Made by a program: the position numbers and the translations under genes
The notes under the pieces: generated by a model
Told to the model about the DNA's origin: nothing
Database searches by the model: none
What the model saw: the letters and a program-made list of their open reading frames with translations, nothing else
DNA from: Candidatus Krumholzibacteriia bacterium
Lineage (GTDB): Bacteria; Krumholzibacteriota; Krumholzibacteriia; LZORAL124-64-63
DNA length: 58,835 nucleotides
Assembly (NCBI GenBank): GCA_024763215.1
Contig: JANTFX010000008.1
Location: 1-58,835 of the forward strand
Direction of reading: 5' to 3'
Shown: positions 9,436-15,334 of the stretch, piece by piece
How the letters are laid out: each line of letters begins with the position of its first letter
Numbering within the stretch: the stretch's first letter is position 1

Positions 9436-10806
9436 ATGGGTTCGGAGCGGGACACCAATCTGGCGCTATTCATCGATTTCGACAACGTGGCCCTGGGCGC
9501 CCGCGACGCGCGGCAGCGCTTCGATATCAAGCTGCTCATGCACCGCATCCTCGAGAAGGGCAAGGTCATCGTCAAGCGGGCCTACGCCGACTGGCACTAC
9601 TACAAGGAGCACATGAACTCCCTGCACGAGGCCGCCATCGAATTGATCGAGGTGCCCATGCCCAAGATCTCGGGCAAGAACAGCGCGGACATCAAGATGG
9701 TCGTCGACGCCATGGACCTCTGCTATTCCAAGCACCACATCGACACCTTCGTGCTGGTGACCGGCGATTCCGATTTTTCGCCCCTGGTCTCCAAGCTCCG
9801 CGAGAACGACAAGCGGGTCATCGGCATCGGCATGAAGAACAGCAGCAGCAAGCTGCTGATCGGCAACTGCGACGAGTTCATCTTCTACGATGACATCTAC
9901 CGCCAGACCCGGGGGCGGGTCACCCGGCCCGTGGTCGGGGTTTCGGGGGAAAAAGGCGAGCTGTTCGACTTCCTGGTCGATACGGTGCAGAGCCTGCTGC
10001 AGGAAAGCAGGGGCGTGCTCTACAGCTCGCTGATCAAGGACACCATGACCCGCAAGAAGCCTGATTTCAACGAGCGCGCCTATGGCTATTCCACCTTCGG
10101 CGATGTGTTGGAGGAGGCGCGCAACCTCGGCCTGCTCCAGGTGGAAAGGGACGCCAAGGCGGGGGGCACCTGGGTGGTGCAGGGCATGGGCAAAGGCGTC
10201 GCGAAGCAGGAAGCAGGCGGCCAGGGGACGGGCGAGCGCGCATCATCGTCCTCCGGTTCCAGCCGCTCCTCGCGGCGTCGCCGCCGGTCCTCGGACCGCA
10301 ACGGCCGTCGTGACCGCCAGGAGCAGCCTGCCGGCGGCAAGGAGCAGCCGGCCGGGGCCTCCGGGACCTCCGGGGCCGCCGCGCCCGCAGACACCGAGAA
10401 AGCCGTGAAGCATGATGCCGGCGCGGCGGACCGTCCGGCCGCCCCAGACAGCAAGCCCCAGACGCCCCCCCAGGATAAGCCCGCCGCTGCTGCCGAGGGC
10501 AGGGCCACCTCCGGCGCTCCGGAGCCGTCCCCGCAACCCGAAGGCGATGGGGCTCCCACCAAGAAGACCAGCGTGAAGAAGACCACCAGGAAGAAGGCGC
10601 CGGCCAAGAAGGCGCCGGCAAAGAAGACTCCTACCAAGAAGGCGTCCACCAAGAAGGCTCCCACCAAGAAGGCTCCGGCCAAGAAAACCACGGTGAAGAA
10701 GAAGACCGCCACCAAGAAGGCCGCAACGAAAAAGACGGCCACCAGGAAGAAAACCACCACGAAGAAGACCGCGAAGAAGGCAACCGCCCGCAAGAACCAG
10801 GATTGA
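9436..10806 (+). CDS. NYN-domain putative ribonuclease with LOTUS/OST-HTH domain and histone H1-like tail
   Basis: A 456-residue, three-part protein. Residues 8-155 form a NYN (LabA/DUF88, PIN-like) domain with acidic residues expected for metal-dependent RNA cleavage: Asp14 and Asp16 in FIDFDN, Asp91, and Asp111/Asp113 in VTGDSDF. Residues about 172-252 resemble an OST-HTH/LOTUS RNA-binding domain ([14 protein letters not shown] ... [13 protein letters not shown]). Residues 255-375 are low-complexity Ser/Arg then Pro/Ala/Glu-rich. Residues 376-456 are about 40 percent lysine in repeats such as KKAPAKKAP, like eukaryotic H1 or bacterial histone-like tails. Start ATG 9436 has GGGAGG at the right distance; an upstream GTG at 9415 does not. 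It is transcribed alone, divergent from the peptidase. Nucleic-acid binding is likely; target RNA is unknown. Confidence 0.85.
10566..10800 (+). repeat. Degenerate lysine-rich coding repeat (AAGAAG-based)
   Basis: Within the NYN protein gene, tandem units of about 12 to 15 bp encode KKAP, KKTP and KKAT-like steps. The units are in frame and vary at codon third positions, so they look selected at protein level. Confidence 0.7.
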
Positions 10807-11437: not shown

Positions 11438-12403
11438 ATGGTCACCCGCGATGACATCCTTCAGGCCGCCGAGAGAATCAGGGACAGGATCCACCGGACA
11501 CCCGTTCTTACCTGCCGGGCCATGGACAGGCTGATCGGGGCGCGCCTGTTTTTCAAGTGCGAGAATTTCCAGAAGGTCGGCGCCTTCAAGATGCGCGGCG
11601 CCTGCAACGCGGTGTTCAGCCTGGGCGAACAGGATGCGGCCCGGGGCGTCGCGACGCATTCCTCGGGCAACCACGCCCAGGCTCTTGCCCTGGCCGCCCG
11701 GATGCGCGGGGTCCCGGCCCACGTGGTCATGCCCGTCGGCTCCCCCGCGGTCAAGCGGGAGGCGGTCCTTGGGTACGGGGCGCAGGTCACCGACTGCGAA
11801 CCGACTCTCCAGGCCCGTGAGGAGACCCTGGCCGAGGTCGTGCGGAGCACCGGGGCTACCTTCATCCATCCCTACGACGATGAGCGGGTGATCGCGGGGC
11901 AGGGCACGGCGGCTCTGGAACTGCTGGACCAGGTCCGGGATCTGGATGTGGTGCTGGCGCCGGTGGGCGGAGGCGGGCTCCTATCCGGGACGGCCATCGC
12001 GTGCGCGGGAGCGGGCCGACCGCCCCGGGTCATCGCCTGCGAACCTGAAGGCGCCGACGATGCGGCCCGTTCCCTGGCCGCCGGGCGCATCATCCCCTCG
12101 GTCGACCCCGATACCGTCGCGGACGGGTTGCTGACCTCGCTGGGCGGGCTGACGTTCCCGATCATCCGCCGCCACGTCGAGGCCGTCTGGACCGTCCCGG
12201 ATCAGGACACCATCCGGGCCATGCGCCTGATCTGGGAGCGCATGAAGATCGTGGTCGAGCCCTCGGCCGCCGTGTGTATGGGCGCCTTGCTGGGCCGCTC
12301 CCGCGAGGTCGCGGGCCTGCGCGTGGGGATCATCCTCTCCGGGGGCAACGTGGACCTGGACCGGCTGCCCTGGGCGGTCCGGCAAGACGAACCGAAAGGC
12401 TGA
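11438..12403 (+). CDS. PLP-dependent threonine/serine dehydratase or serine racemase-like enzyme
   Basis: A 321-residue fold-type II PLP enzyme without the C-terminal ACT regulatory domain of biosynthetic IlvA, so it matches catabolic threonine dehydratase, serine racemase or hydroxyaspartate dehydratase lengths. The PLP lysine is Lys51 in GAFKMRGA, the substrate loop is HSSGNHAQA (74-82) and the phosphate cup is GGGGL (177-181). Expected reactions are deamination of Thr/Ser to 2-oxo acids and ammonia, or racemisation. It heads a tight plus-strand run: the thioesterase gene begins 6 bp after its stop. ATG 11438 has a GGAG site upstream. Substrate is not resolvable from sequence. Confidence 0.85.
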   Translation: MVTRDDILQAAERIRDRIHRTPVLTCRAMDRLIGARLFFKCENFQKVGAFKMRGACNAVFSLGEQDAARGVATHSSGNHAQALALAARMRGVPAHVVMPVGSPAVKREAVLGYGAQVTDCEPTLQAREETLAEVVRSTGATFIHPYDDERVIAGQGTAALELLDQVRDLDVVLAPVGGGGLLSGTAIACAGAGRPPRVIACEPEGADDAARSLAAGRIIPSVDPDTVADGLLTSLGGLTFPIIRRHVEAVWTVPDQDTIRAMRLIWERMKIVVEPSAAVCMGALLGRSREVAGLRVGIILSGGNVDLDRLPWAVRQDEPKG

Positions 12404-12409
12404 GCGAAC

Positions 12410-12856
12410 ATGGAGCACACCCTGCGGATCAAGGTGCGCGGATATCATTGCGATTTCTACGGGCATGTCAACAACGCCCGCTACCTGGAATTCCTGGAGG
12501 AGGCGCGCTGGTCCTATCTGGAGACAGGCCTGGACCTGCAGGAATGGAAGCGCAGGGGGCTGGGTTTCGTGGTCACGGCCGTGACCATCAGGTATCTCCG
12601 CCCCGCCGGCCTCAACACGGTGCTGGAGGTGCGGTCGCAGATGGCGGCCGTCGGCGAGCGCAGGGGCGTCATCAACCAGGAGGTGGCCGATACCGCGGAC
12701 GGCAAGCTCGTGGCCGCGGCCGAGGTGACCTTCGCGGTGGTGGACCTGACAACCGGCCGTGGTGTGCCCCTTTCCGGGGAGATAGCGGAAATTCTGGAAC
12801 ACGGCCTGGCCGGGCCGCCGGCAGGTGGCCCCGGTGACGACGGGGAGGAATCATGA
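12410..12856 (+). CDS. 4HBT-type acyl-CoA thioesterase
   Basis: A 148-residue single hot-dog-fold protein. The signature CDFYGHVNNARYLEFLEEAR at residues 14-33 contains the catalytic Asp15 and the HVNN turn of the 4-hydroxybenzoyl-CoA thioesterase/YbgC/FadM group. It should hydrolyse acyl-CoA or acyl-ACP thioesters in the cytoplasm as a tetramer or dimer. It lies between the PLP enzyme (6-bp gap) and the transporter gene, which starts within its stop codon (ATGA overlap). The specific acyl chain is unknown. The C-terminal 20 residues are Pro/Gly-rich and probably disordered. Confidence 0.88.
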   Translation: MEHTLRIKVRGYHCDFYGHVNNARYLEFLEEARWSYLETGLDLQEWKRRGLGFVVTAVTIRYLRPAGLNTVLEVRSQMAAVGERRGVINQEVADTADGKLVAAAEVTFAVVDLTTGRGVPLSGEIAEILEHGLAGPPAGGPGDDGEES

Positions 12857-14121
12857 GCGGAAAAACGGTGGCCGAGCAGGCCACCTGGAGGGAAAAGCTG
12901 CGCGCGGTGGGGCCGGGGATCCTCTTCGCCGGGGCCGCCATCGGCGTTTCCCACCTGGTCCAGTCCACCCGTGCGGGGGCCGGTTACGGGTTCACCCTGC
13001 TGTGGGCGGTGGTGCTGGTCCTGTTCTTCAAGTACCCCTTCTTCCAGTTTTCCCACCGCTACACCGTCGCGGCCCGGGAAAGCATGCTGCACGGTTACCA
13101 GCGCATCGGCCGCTGGGCGCTGGTCCTGTTCATGGTCATCGTTCTGGTCAGCGCGTTCATCACGACCGCGGCGGTGACCATCGTGACCGCGGGCCTTGCC
13201 GGAGCCTTGCTGGGGCTTGATGTTTCCTTGACCTGGCTGAGCCTGGGTCTGCTGGCCCTGATCACGGTGATCCTGCTGGGGGGGCGCTACGGCCTGCTGG
13301 ATATGGGCATGAAGATCATGGTGCTGGTGCTGGGCGTGCTGACCCTGGTGGCGGTCACCGTGGCCTTCGGCCATGGGGCGGTGGGGGACCCCGCCTGGCG
13401 GGATCCGTCGGTGTGGTCGGTGGGCGGGATGACCTTCCTGCTCGCCTTGATGGGCTGGATGCCCGCGCCCCTGGATATCAGCGTCTGGTCTTCCCTGTGG
13501 ATCCTGGAGAAGCACCGTGAAGATCCCACCATACCCGAACGGGCCGGCGCGCTGCTGGATTTCAACCTCGGCTACGGCGCCTGCGTGGTCCTGGCCATCG
13601 CCTTCGTGAGCTTCGGAGCCCTGGTGATGCACGGCACGGGGGTGGAATTTTCCGCCTCGGGCCTGGAGTTCAGCAAGCAGCTGATCAGCATGTACACCGA
13701 CACCCTCGGCGCCTGGACGCGTCCGGTCATCGCCCTGGTGGCGTTCATCACCATGTTCTCGACCACCTTGACGGTGATGGACGGCTACGCGCGCACCCTC
13801 GGCAGCGGCATCATGATCCTGGCCGACGCCGGGGACAAGCTGCGCAAGAAGCTGTACCCCTTGTTCCTGGTCCTGCAGATCATCCTGGCCGTGCTGATCA
13901 TCAGCCGCTTCCTGGGCGCCATGAAATCCCTGGTGGACATCGTGACCGTGACGGCATTTTTGGCCGCGCCCCTGGTGGCGGCGCTGAACTTCAGGGTGAT
14001 GTTCCTGCCTACGGTGCCGCAAGGGCAGCGCCTCGGCCGGGGCATGATCGCCTACTGCACGGCGGGGATGGTGTTCCTGGTCGGTTTCAGCCTGGTGTGG
14101 TTGAAGGTCCGCTGGTTCTGA
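12853..14121 (+). CDS. Nramp-family membrane transporter lacking canonical metal-binding motifs
   Basis: A 422-residue protein with about 11 predicted transmembrane helices and the LeuT-like Nramp framework: the first helix contains GPGILFAGAAIGVSHL (20-35) followed by a GAGYGFTLLW segment, as in MntH. However, the DPGN metal motif of helix 1 is replaced by GVSH (31-34), and the MPHN motif of helix 6 by MPAP (203-206). Manganese or iron transport as in MntH is therefore doubtful. Similar divergent Nramp-like proteins are, as I recall, widespread in Bacteroidetes but functionally unassigned. Translation is coupled to the thioesterase gene by an ATGA overlap, hinting at an organic or acyl-related substrate; that is speculation. 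Confidence 0.8.
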   Translation: MSGKTVAEQATWREKLRAVGPGILFAGAAIGVSHLVQSTRAGAGYGFTLLWAVVLVLFFKYPFFQFSHRYTVAARESMLHGYQRIGRWALVLFMVIVLVSAFITTAAVTIVTAGLAGALLGLDVSLTWLSLGLLALITVILLGGRYGLLDMGMKIMVLVLGVLTLVAVTVAFGHGAVGDPAWRDPSVWSVGGMTFLLALMGWMPAPLDISVWSSLWILEKHREDPTIPERAGALLDFNLGYGACVVLAIAFVSFGALVMHGTGVEFSASGLEFSKQLISMYTDTLGAWTRPVIALVAFITMFSTTLTVMDGYARTLGSGIMILADAGDKLRKKLYPLFLVLQIILAVLIISRFLGAMKSLVDIVTVTAFLAAPLVAALNFRVMFLPTVPQGQRLGRGMIAYCTAGMVFLVGFSLVWLKVRWF

Positions 14122-14171
14122 CGGCCGAGCGGCGCCAGGCGGGGCAGGTATGCGAGCCTTGACGATAGGAG

Positions 14172-14295
14172 CATGACCCCTTGTCCTCAGGGACGGAGGC
14201 CCCTGACATCGTGTCAGGGGCCTCCTCGGCTTTCCGGCCCTTCCGCCCTCCGTGGCTCACGGGCCTCCAAGACGCCCTGATGACAAGGGGTCATG
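14172..14295. repeat. Nested palindromic element (21-bp inverted repeats around a 13-bp hairpin)
   Basis: Outer arms at 14172-14192 and 14275-14295 are inverted copies of 21 bp with one mismatch (core ATGACCCCTTGTC / GACAAGGGGTCAT). Inside, 14195-14207 and 14213-14225 form a perfect 13-bp stem with a 5-nt loop. Further inside, ACGGAGG (14193-14199) and GGCCTCC (14262-14268) can pair alternatively. The element lies between two convergent genes. It could be a compound bidirectional terminator, a REP/REPIN-type sequence or a miniature transposon; no target-site duplication is visible. Confidence 0.75.
14195..14225. terminator. Perfect 13-bp GC-rich hairpin between convergent genes
   Basis: Stem GGAGGCCCCTGAC / GTCAGGGGCCTCC, loop ATCGT. 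It lies 73 bp after the Nramp-like gene. Only a short T-rich stretch follows, so intrinsic termination is plausible but not certain. Confidence 0.55.
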
Positions 14296-14323
14296 CCTCT
14301 CTCATCATGACCCTCATGCCTCT
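14291..14323 (+). repeat. 10-bp direct repeat TCATGCCTCT
   Basis: Two exact copies at 14291-14300 and 14314-14323, the first overlapping the right arm of the palindromic element. Confidence 0.5.
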
Positions 14324-14362
14324 TCCGCCTGGAAAGACCCGGCCGTCATAACCATCGGATCT

Positions 14363-15334
14363 TCAATCGCCACCCTGCACGAGGGGATCGAACGCCTCCT
14401 TGAGGCCGGCCTGGAGGGCGGCGACATCCTCGGGCGACCACTGCGCGGGATCTTCCCGCACGAAGGTCGTGCGGTCCTGGCGGTTGTCGAAGCGGCCCAC
14501 GGGCAGGTAGTAGACGCGGCCATCCTTCTCGACCTTCACGGTATCGGGCCGGTCGGATTGGTCCAGCAGCCATTGCATGTCGTCGCAGCCGTAATCCCCG
14601 TACATGACGGCCAGGGGCACGCCGTGGTGCAGGATGCTGCCCGGGTCGTCGGGATCGGTGCGGGCCTCGTTCTTGCGACGCGATTCCTCGGGGGTGACCC
14701 AGATGTACAGGATGCTCGCCTTGGACAGGATTTCCGGGCTCAGCTGGGCCAGGCTGTGGCGGTAGCCGAACGGCCTGGGCAGGGGCAGGGGCGAACCGTC
14801 GGCCCCGCCGCGGGCGAACTCGATGACCACCGTCTTGCCCTCGAGGGAGTCGGGGACTTCGGCCACCTTGGCGGCCAGGATCTCCGCCGCGTCGTCCTCC
14901 ACCGCAGCGGCGATTTCCGCGCACAAATCCGCCGGCAAGGAGGACAGGGCGGGGGCGCCGCCGGCCCGGTTGCGGGCCGCGTCGATGCGTTCGAAAAGCC
15001 AGGGCGCGGCGGCATCCGGGGCGGGTTTCCTGCCTGCGGCCATGTCCTGGTAATCCTCGTTGATGAGCTCGATCAGCGTCAGCCAGTCGATGGGGTCGCG
15101 GAAAGGCAGGGCGGGGGACAGGAAGAACAGCCCCTCGCGGCCGCGTGCGGTCAACTCGTCGGTGACCCGGCGCATGAAGTGGACATAGGGAAAATCGTCC
15201 AGCTGGACGGTGTGGCCGATGCCGAACTGGTCGTGGCACTCGGCGGGCGAAAGCGAGGCCAGATAGCGGCGGACCTCCGATTTTCCGCTGGCGGGCAGGG
15301 CCAGCAGGAGCAGCACATCTATGTGTTTGGACAT
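14363..15334 (-). CDS. Hypothetical P-loop protein
   Basis: A 323-residue cytoplasmic protein that I do not recognise. Its start is MSKHIDVLLLLALPASGKSE, where PASGKS (14-19) fits a Walker A/P-loop of the kinase type directly after a first beta-strand. A second short hydrophobic strand, KASILYIWVTPEESRRKN, is followed by basic residues that could form a lid, as in small-molecule kinases or adenylylsulfate kinase-like folds. The C-terminal part contains an FDNRQDRTTFVRE segment. ATG 15334 has AAAGGA upstream; an earlier in-frame ATG at 15364 has no such site. It stands alone, convergent with the Nramp-like gene and divergent from the secreted protease. Nucleotide-dependent phosphotransfer is inference only. 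Confidence 0.75.
   Translation of the reverse strand: MSKHIDVLLLLALPASGKSEVRRYLASLSPAECHDQFGIGHTVQLDDFPYVHFMRRVTDELTARGREGLFFLSPALPFRDPIDWLTLIELINEDYQDMAAGRKPAPDAAAPWLFERIDAARNRAGGAPALSSLPADLCAEIAAAVEDDAAEILAAKVAEVPDSLEGKTVVIEFARGGADGSPLPLPRPFGYRHSLAQLSPEILSKASILYIWVTPEESRRKNEARTDPDDPGSILHHGVPLAVMYGDYGCDDMQWLLDQSDRPDTVKVEKDGRVYYLPVGRFDNRQDRTTFVREDPAQWSPEDVAALQAGLKEAFDPLVQGGD

Follow-up and report, generated by a model that had tools for sequence, protein, structure and literature searches.

What does a transporter carry when it has the Nramp fold but lacks the side chains with which characterized Nramps hold their metal? The question is raised by a plus-strand gene at positions 12853 to 14121 of the window (by which we mean the whole stretch of DNA analyzed, 58,835 nucleotides from a Candidatus Krumholzibacteriia bacterium), and it touches both on how the Nramp fold gained its metal specificity and on what the Nramp-related proteins without the metal motif transport. 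The open frame, 422 codons long, was judged coding by a codon model, and profiles and the predicted fold mark its product (422 amino acids; P0001) as an Nramp-fold transporter of what we call the GVSH/GWMP subfamily.

The transporter gene is the third of three consecutive plus-strand genes. The first (11438 to 12403; 321 amino acids from the ATG at 11438) encodes P0003, a PLP-dependent dehydratase of the serine racemase/3-hydroxyaspartate dehydratase group that is nearest to the serine racemase structure 6lut; because its score against NF045641, the model for the beta-hydroxyaspartate dehydratase BhcB, is under the cut-off (461.1 bits against 550), we withhold the name BhcB. The second (12410 to 12856; 148 amino acids) encodes P0002, which profiles identify as a 4HBT_2 or YbgC/FadM-type acyl-CoA thioesterase: it passes TIGR00051 (YbgC/FadM) with 70.1 bits against a cut-off of 68.7, and among solved structures E. 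coli YbaW (1njk) is the nearest to it. As an earlier note on this DNA had claimed, the transporter begins within the thioesterase stop, in an ATGA overlap (12853 to 12856, plus strand). The same note put the transporter a few base pairs after the PLP dehydratase; a gap of that order (6 bases, from 12403 to 12410) does follow the PLP gene, but it is the thioesterase that lies beyond it, and the transporter is not directly adjacent.

That P0001 has the Nramp fold was borne out by an AlphaFold2 model built from 30 rows (mean pLDDT, 85.5; pTM, 0.85). Its best match in the PDB was DraNramp (6d91; Z 40.1, rmsd 3.1, 380 residues) and the next best was human NRAMP1, with EleNRMT at Z 33.0 and the amino-acid transporters SLC7A10 and AdiC at Z 32. 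As modeled, then, the fold is that of Nramp, while the sequence is far from canonical Nramps (13 to 16% identity to five canonical rows). Family models mirror this position. Against Pfam PF01566 (Nramp; gathering cut-off, 29.8), P0001 scored 26.9 bits, and in a six-frame search 29.3 bits, or 30.2 counting neighbors in frame; its full-length relatives exceed the cut-off. It does pass NCBIfam NF037982, "Nramp family divalent metal transporter" (59.2 bits; cut-off, 50), and would therefore be named a metal transporter. However, NF037982 also takes in MntH, a canonical Nramp (319 bits), as well as a protein from a sugar-acid cluster (115 bits), and it is too broad for telling function; the name "divalent metal transporter" is thereby placed on proteins for which it is unsupported.

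DraNramp coordinates manganese through three side chains (Asp56, Asn59, and Met230) and two carbonyls (Ala53 and Ala227), with Glu134 and His232 belonging to a proton network and Thr228 lying in the outer gate (PMC10185341, in the part available). We paired DraNramp with P0001 by HMMER profile alignment and by MAFFT, which agree on helices 1 and 6. In helix 1, the codons for Gly31-Val32-Ser33-His34 (12943 to 12954, plus strand) align with Asp56-Pro57-Gly58-Asn59, so that GVSH does stand in place of DPGN, as had been proposed; the framework motifs GPGILFAG and GAGYGF, said to be intact, are indeed present at residues 20 to 27 and 42 to 47. In helix 6, the codons for Trp202-Met203-Pro204-Ala205-Pro206-Leu207-Asp208 (13456 to 13476, plus strand) align with Ala227 to Val233. 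Here the proposal had been that MPHN became MPAP (residues 203 to 206). The ligand side chains are absent, as it implied, but the register was two residues off (ATVMPH pairs with WMPAPL), and both alignments rule out that exact pairing. The corrected register leaves the conclusion unchanged but brings to light an acid at residue 208. All three side-chain ligands are missing, Asp56 being paired with Gly31, Asn59 with His34, and Met230 with Ala205; the other helix-6 pairs are Ala227 with Trp202, Thr228 with Met203, Val229 with Pro204, Pro231 with Pro206, and His232 with Leu207. P0001 thus has neither DPGN in helix 1 nor A/CxxMPH in helix 6, and where DraNramp has Glu134 in helix 3 it has Val108 (MAFFT) or Thr109 (HMMER).

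These replacements are shared by a subfamily and are no oddity of one protein. Ser33, His34, Lys60, Lys154, Gly201, Trp202, Met203, Pro204, Asp310, and Arg314 are each found in 91 of 91 members, Ser33-His34 and Gly-Trp-Met-Pro among them; Gly31 is present in 90, and residue 208 is always acidic (Asp in 74, Glu in 17). Asp310 and Arg314, on the eighth core helix (codons 13780 to 13794, plus strand), form the subfamily's invariant acid/base pair. The 91 members come from four phyla and comprise 20 proteins from Krumholzibacteriia, 66 from Bacteroidota, 1 from Verrucomicrobia, and 4 from Gamma- and Betaproteobacteria. The Bacteroidota rows are made up of 51 proteins representing every match with E < 1e-100, picked per locus by motif pattern (all 51 passed), and of 15 from 20 further loci; near-duplicates (L047, L057, and L062) and proteins cut by a contig end (L059 and L061) were left out, as was L050, which is not one of those 20 loci, and at least one genome, a Tenacibaculum, is counted twice (as L049 and as L266). 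The count does not extend to weaker relatives such as L022/L023, the SH-like rows, and other groups. Full-length members (E < 1e-100) occur in 51 of 296 sampled Bacteroidota genomes, and of the 35 genomes in the Krumholzibacteriia family of the window, its own counted, 21 have the transporter, complete in 20 and truncated at a contig end in 1. A contig titled Gemmatimonadales (L036) bears the Krumholzibacteriia version of the locus, with a protein identical to L012 of G020, and the N. gonorrhoeae record L066 (NZ_CP119140.1; 2.17 Mb), although deposited as a plasmid, is probably the chromosome.

A decayed copy or a chance open reading frame is ruled out by homologues with invariant residues. 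Because the signature is unvarying across the 91 members, the GVSH branch is, judged by residue conservation, a constrained alternative site and not a decaying one. It could be a redrawn site for a divalent cation, in which His34, Met203, and Asp/Glu208, together with backbone carbonyls, would replace Asp56, Asn59, and Met230; on balance we find this doubtful. The invariant His34 and Met203 and the acid at residue 208 in all 91 members make shifted ligands conceivable, and histidine, methionine, and a carboxylate are typical metal ligands. Nevertheless, 90 of the 91 members have glycine in the place of the charged helix-1 ligand, and with the helix-3 Glu absent as well the site would carry less negative charge; Met203 pairs with Thr228, which in DraNramp is an outer-gate residue and no ligand (PMC10185341); and L022/L023, which retain Ser-His and Gly-Trp-Met-Pro, have Gly at 208.

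Whether the metal motif was lost or was never there is a question of descent. Our tree holds 51 rows, among them five canonical Nramps (one a clade-B row), with NRMT sequences left out; it replaced an earlier tree with a single canonical row, in which long branches met. A split with 100/99 support sets the canonical Nramps, the "GPGT" rows, and PxpT on one side and the GVSH branch on the other, together with the SH-like rows, L022/L023, and the GSGEL rows. Long branches lead to PxpT and to the D. deserti row, and the placement of both is unsure. In both trees P0001 lies outside the canonical clade, which rules out motif loss within canonical Nramps. Nramp-related proteins without the metal motif have been described as a paraphyletic group, with the canonical motif arising later (PMC12873925), and are also covered by PMC9606685 and PMC10606218. 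The earlier note had held that the motifs were "lost"; given the position outside the clade and the later origin of the canonical motif put forward in the accessible part of PMC12873925, "never had" appears to fit better.

Motif-less Nramp-related proteins are therefore already known in print, and GVSH/GWMP is, on its residue conservation, a real and well-conserved subfamily among them; our literature searches, in which papers were available in part, yielded no published description of it, and nothing tying Nramp to threonate, to DUF1537/acid sugar, or to this motif pair; on Nramp-related proteins as carriers of organic acids or carboxylates, the titles listed offered nothing pertinent. Set beside known systems, P0001 shares with the canonical Nramp/SLC11 proteins (MntH; DraNramp, EcoDMT, and BfraNramp) the LeuT/Nramp fold, the GPG start of helix 1, and the AGA-x-x-G framework, but differs from them in the residues, identity, and tree position given above. 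With NRMT it shares an Nramp-related fold and the want of a transition-metal motif; however, the NRMT signature as given in PMC8806188 (DxxG, and TxxA or T) is replaced in P0001 by GxxH and WxxA, with Gly31 for the Asp. The PxpT/YcsG group of 5-oxoproline transporters is likewise Nramp-related, and a homologue on a Klebsiella plasmid is without DPGN. PxpT/YcsG proteins nevertheless are 15% identical to P0001, have an IGPGF motif, fall on the opposite side of the tree, and adjoin pxpA and its partners, whereas no pxp gene lies beside the transporter in the window. Finally, the GPGT rows (L139, L173, L174, L183, L189, and L190) resemble P0001 in being PF01566-type proteins with no metal motif, yet in the 51-row tree they are much closer to the canonical Nramps; we infer that they correspond to the published "orphan" outgroup of Slc11 from the YN/VY/T substitutions of that outgroup, as far as it is set out in the part of PMC10606218 at hand. 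One of them (L139, in G043, 1459 to 2754) directly follows a frame that by eye resembles a hydantoinase/oxoprolinase subunit B, a context that fits 5-oxoproline or hydantoin transport.

Among the 24 genomes of the window's family that have both transporter and thioesterase, the 4-base overlap is found in 18 with an ATG or GTG start and in 5 more with TTG; in the other one (G028), an MgtC-family gene lies between the two. The overlap outlasts both the insertion of genes between PLP gene and thioesterase and a fall in thioesterase identity to about 45%. Thioesterase coupling, as the earlier note had it, thus holds within a single family of Krumholzibacteriia (23 genomes out of 24 once TTG starts are included), but it fails in the loci of other phyla. 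There (51 Bacteroidota loci and those of Verrucomicrobia, Photobacterium, Pseudoalteromonas, and Neisseria), tblastn detected no thioesterase homologue beside the gene and no close PLP homologue, the only PLP gene being a different, 24%-identical one in four Tenacibaculum-type loci. Instead, in 21 loci (20 from Bacteroidota, one from Verrucomicrobia) whose protein starts we inspected by eye, the gene just before the transporter encodes an ECF sigma factor in 19 and the gene just after it is lipA in 17; Pfam confirmation covers L042 only. HlyIII is downstream of the transporter in 21 of the 51 other Bacteroidota loci, the Verrucomicrobia neighbor is folE, and the Photobacterium, Pseudoalteromonas, and Neisseria loci have no consistent neighbor. 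In most of the Flavobacteriaceae loci read, L042 (5442 to 8107) being an example, the GVSH transporter stands between an ECF sigma factor gene, with which it often overlaps, and lipA.

The PLP gene is more loosely attached. Of the 24 stretches retrieved from the family genomes, 20 contain it (2 of the other 4 end at contig edges). Three genomes (G012, G021, and G033) have the order PLP-cupin-thioesterase-MgtC without a transporter, three (G008, G025, and G031) have a PLP gene with neither thioesterase nor transporter, and in all, nine genomes hold the PLP gene (E < 1e-100) with no transporter (G005, G017, and G029 in addition to these six; G029 at a contig end). The persistence of PLP genes and of the PLP-thioesterase pair without the transporter, and the loci of other phyla, rule out PLP coupling as a general feature; the idea that this neighborhood recurs across genomes must be given up along with the "lost" motifs, although the core point of the earlier note stands. 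As a separate observation, in L154 (G028) and L140 to L142 an MgtC-family gene either sits between thioesterase and transporter or fills the place of the absent transporter.

Two explanations of the gene row turn on these facts. In the first, the transporter would supply the PLP dehydratase with serine, threonine, or 3-hydroxyaspartate by importing one of these hydroxy amino acids, much as TdcC serves TdcB. The frequency of the PLP gene in the family, the closeness of its product to serine racemase and the BhcB model, and the resemblance of the P0001 fold to amino-acid transporters all speak for it. Even so, we think it improbable: nine genomes keep the PLP gene without the transporter, other genes separate PLP gene and thioesterase in several genomes, other phyla have no such PLP neighbor, and the thioesterase is left with no evident role. 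In the second, the gene order would be synteny that has simply been inherited and says nothing about function, and the transporter would be unrelated to both enzymes, engaged, for example, in ion or osmolyte transport. Consistent with this, surrounding genes such as the P-loop gene also keep their order in the family, and every other phylum has different neighbors; however, the exact 4-base overlap stays in place while the thioesterase diverges and other neighbors are inserted or lost, and to us this makes mere synteny an unlikely account.

We tentatively prefer to see P0001 as a LeuT-fold secondary transporter of the Nramp-related branch for which a small carboxylate, be it an organic acid or an amino acid, is a likelier substrate than a free transition metal, and we place the acid ahead of the metal, though not by much. 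The unwound centers of helices 1 and 6 (Gly31-x-Ser33-His34 and Gly201-Trp202-Met203-Pro204) would bind the carboxylate as in amino-acid transporters of the same fold, and His34, Asp/Glu208, and the Asp310/Arg314 pair would supply specificity and proton coupling. Within the Krumholzibacteriia lineage, the transporter would move, and most simply export, an acid freed from its CoA ester by the thioesterase. A carboxylate-binding GSG motif is familiar from APC transporters, and enzymes of the FadM type are acyl-CoA thioesterases. The absence of carboxylate and thioether ligands from the aligned site, and the likeness of the model to same-fold amino-acid transporters, plausibly support an acid; a thioesterase would release a free acid, and the overlap with its gene plausibly counts on the same side.

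Relatives furnish further evidence of both kinds. For the GSGEL sisters, three of the four loci read lie in sugar-acid clusters (the Roseomonas locus does not), with four-carbon acid sugar kinase/PdxA genes in two Streptomyces and UxaA in Rubrobacter, contexts that we take to be sugar-acid gene clusters; these sisters are distant, however, at about 21% identity to P0001. Among 16 plasmid loci with other Nramp-related genes, 5 have clear acid-catabolic neighbors, and the argument from them is only moderate because 11 have no clear acid gene. On five plasmids (L070, L164, L163, L167, and L071), genes labeled as divalent metal transporters of the Nramp family lie beside genes for four-carbon acid sugars, altronate (UxaA), pectin, and CoA-transferase/thiolase; the label may mislead here, and the products may be carriers of organic acids. 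Also weighing against an acid, the neighbors outside Krumholzibacteriia (ECF sigma factor/lipA, HlyIII, and folE) do not point to acids.

Published relatives without the metal motif disagree. PxpT, an Nramp-type protein of C. glutamicum, was shown genetically to be needed for growth on 5-oxoproline, which sets a precedent for the acid, and its authors left metal transport possible (PMC13274462, in the portion available); its homologue YcsG of B. subtilis is a reported manganese importer (PMC10448178), a point in favor of the cation, as is the demonstration by NRMT that the fold can switch metal (PMC8806188). So, too, are the MgtC-type gene adjoining in G028, the metalloenzyme genes lipA and folE close by in other phyla, and the outcome of a search of five genomes from beyond Krumholzibacteriia, three of which (G080, G081, and G083) have the GVSH protein as their sole PF01566 match. 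On the other hand, the window's own genome already holds FeoB and a ZnuA-type binding protein for metals, and in G002 and G028 a canonical Nramp coexists with the GVSH transporter.

Extending the carboxylate reading, one could suppose that the whole branch bearing the "Nramp family divalent metal transporter" name is an APC-type carboxylate carrier with a His/Trp-Met-Pro/Asp-Arg site, and that the Krumholzibacteriia unit is a translationally coupled thioesterase and exporter that expels the acid of a CoA ester; this is speculative, and we regard it as somewhat unlikely. The question of substrate is directly testable, since the invariant signature is sharp, relatives occur in tractable organisms (Tenacibaculum, Photobacterium, and Pseudoalteromonas), and in one lineage an enzyme gene overlaps the transporter.

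Immediately downstream, at 14120 to 14347, lies a large imperfect inverted repeat with 73-nucleotide arms (74% complementary) and a perfect inner 14-bp hairpin, whose folding z-score is -8. Parts of it are matched at 77 to 91% identity in 8 other places in the genome, and it is a copy of a dispersed palindromic (REP/MITE-like) element, one that probably ends the operon transcript. Beyond it, on the minus strand (14363 to 15334), is the gene for a 323-amino-acid protein with a P-loop-like start (LALPASGKSE) and no Pfam or NCBIfam match, which adjoins the locus in several relatives. Upstream of the three-gene row, the plus-strand frame at 9436 to 10806 encodes an NYN-domain protein with a long Lys/Ala tail resembling histone H1.
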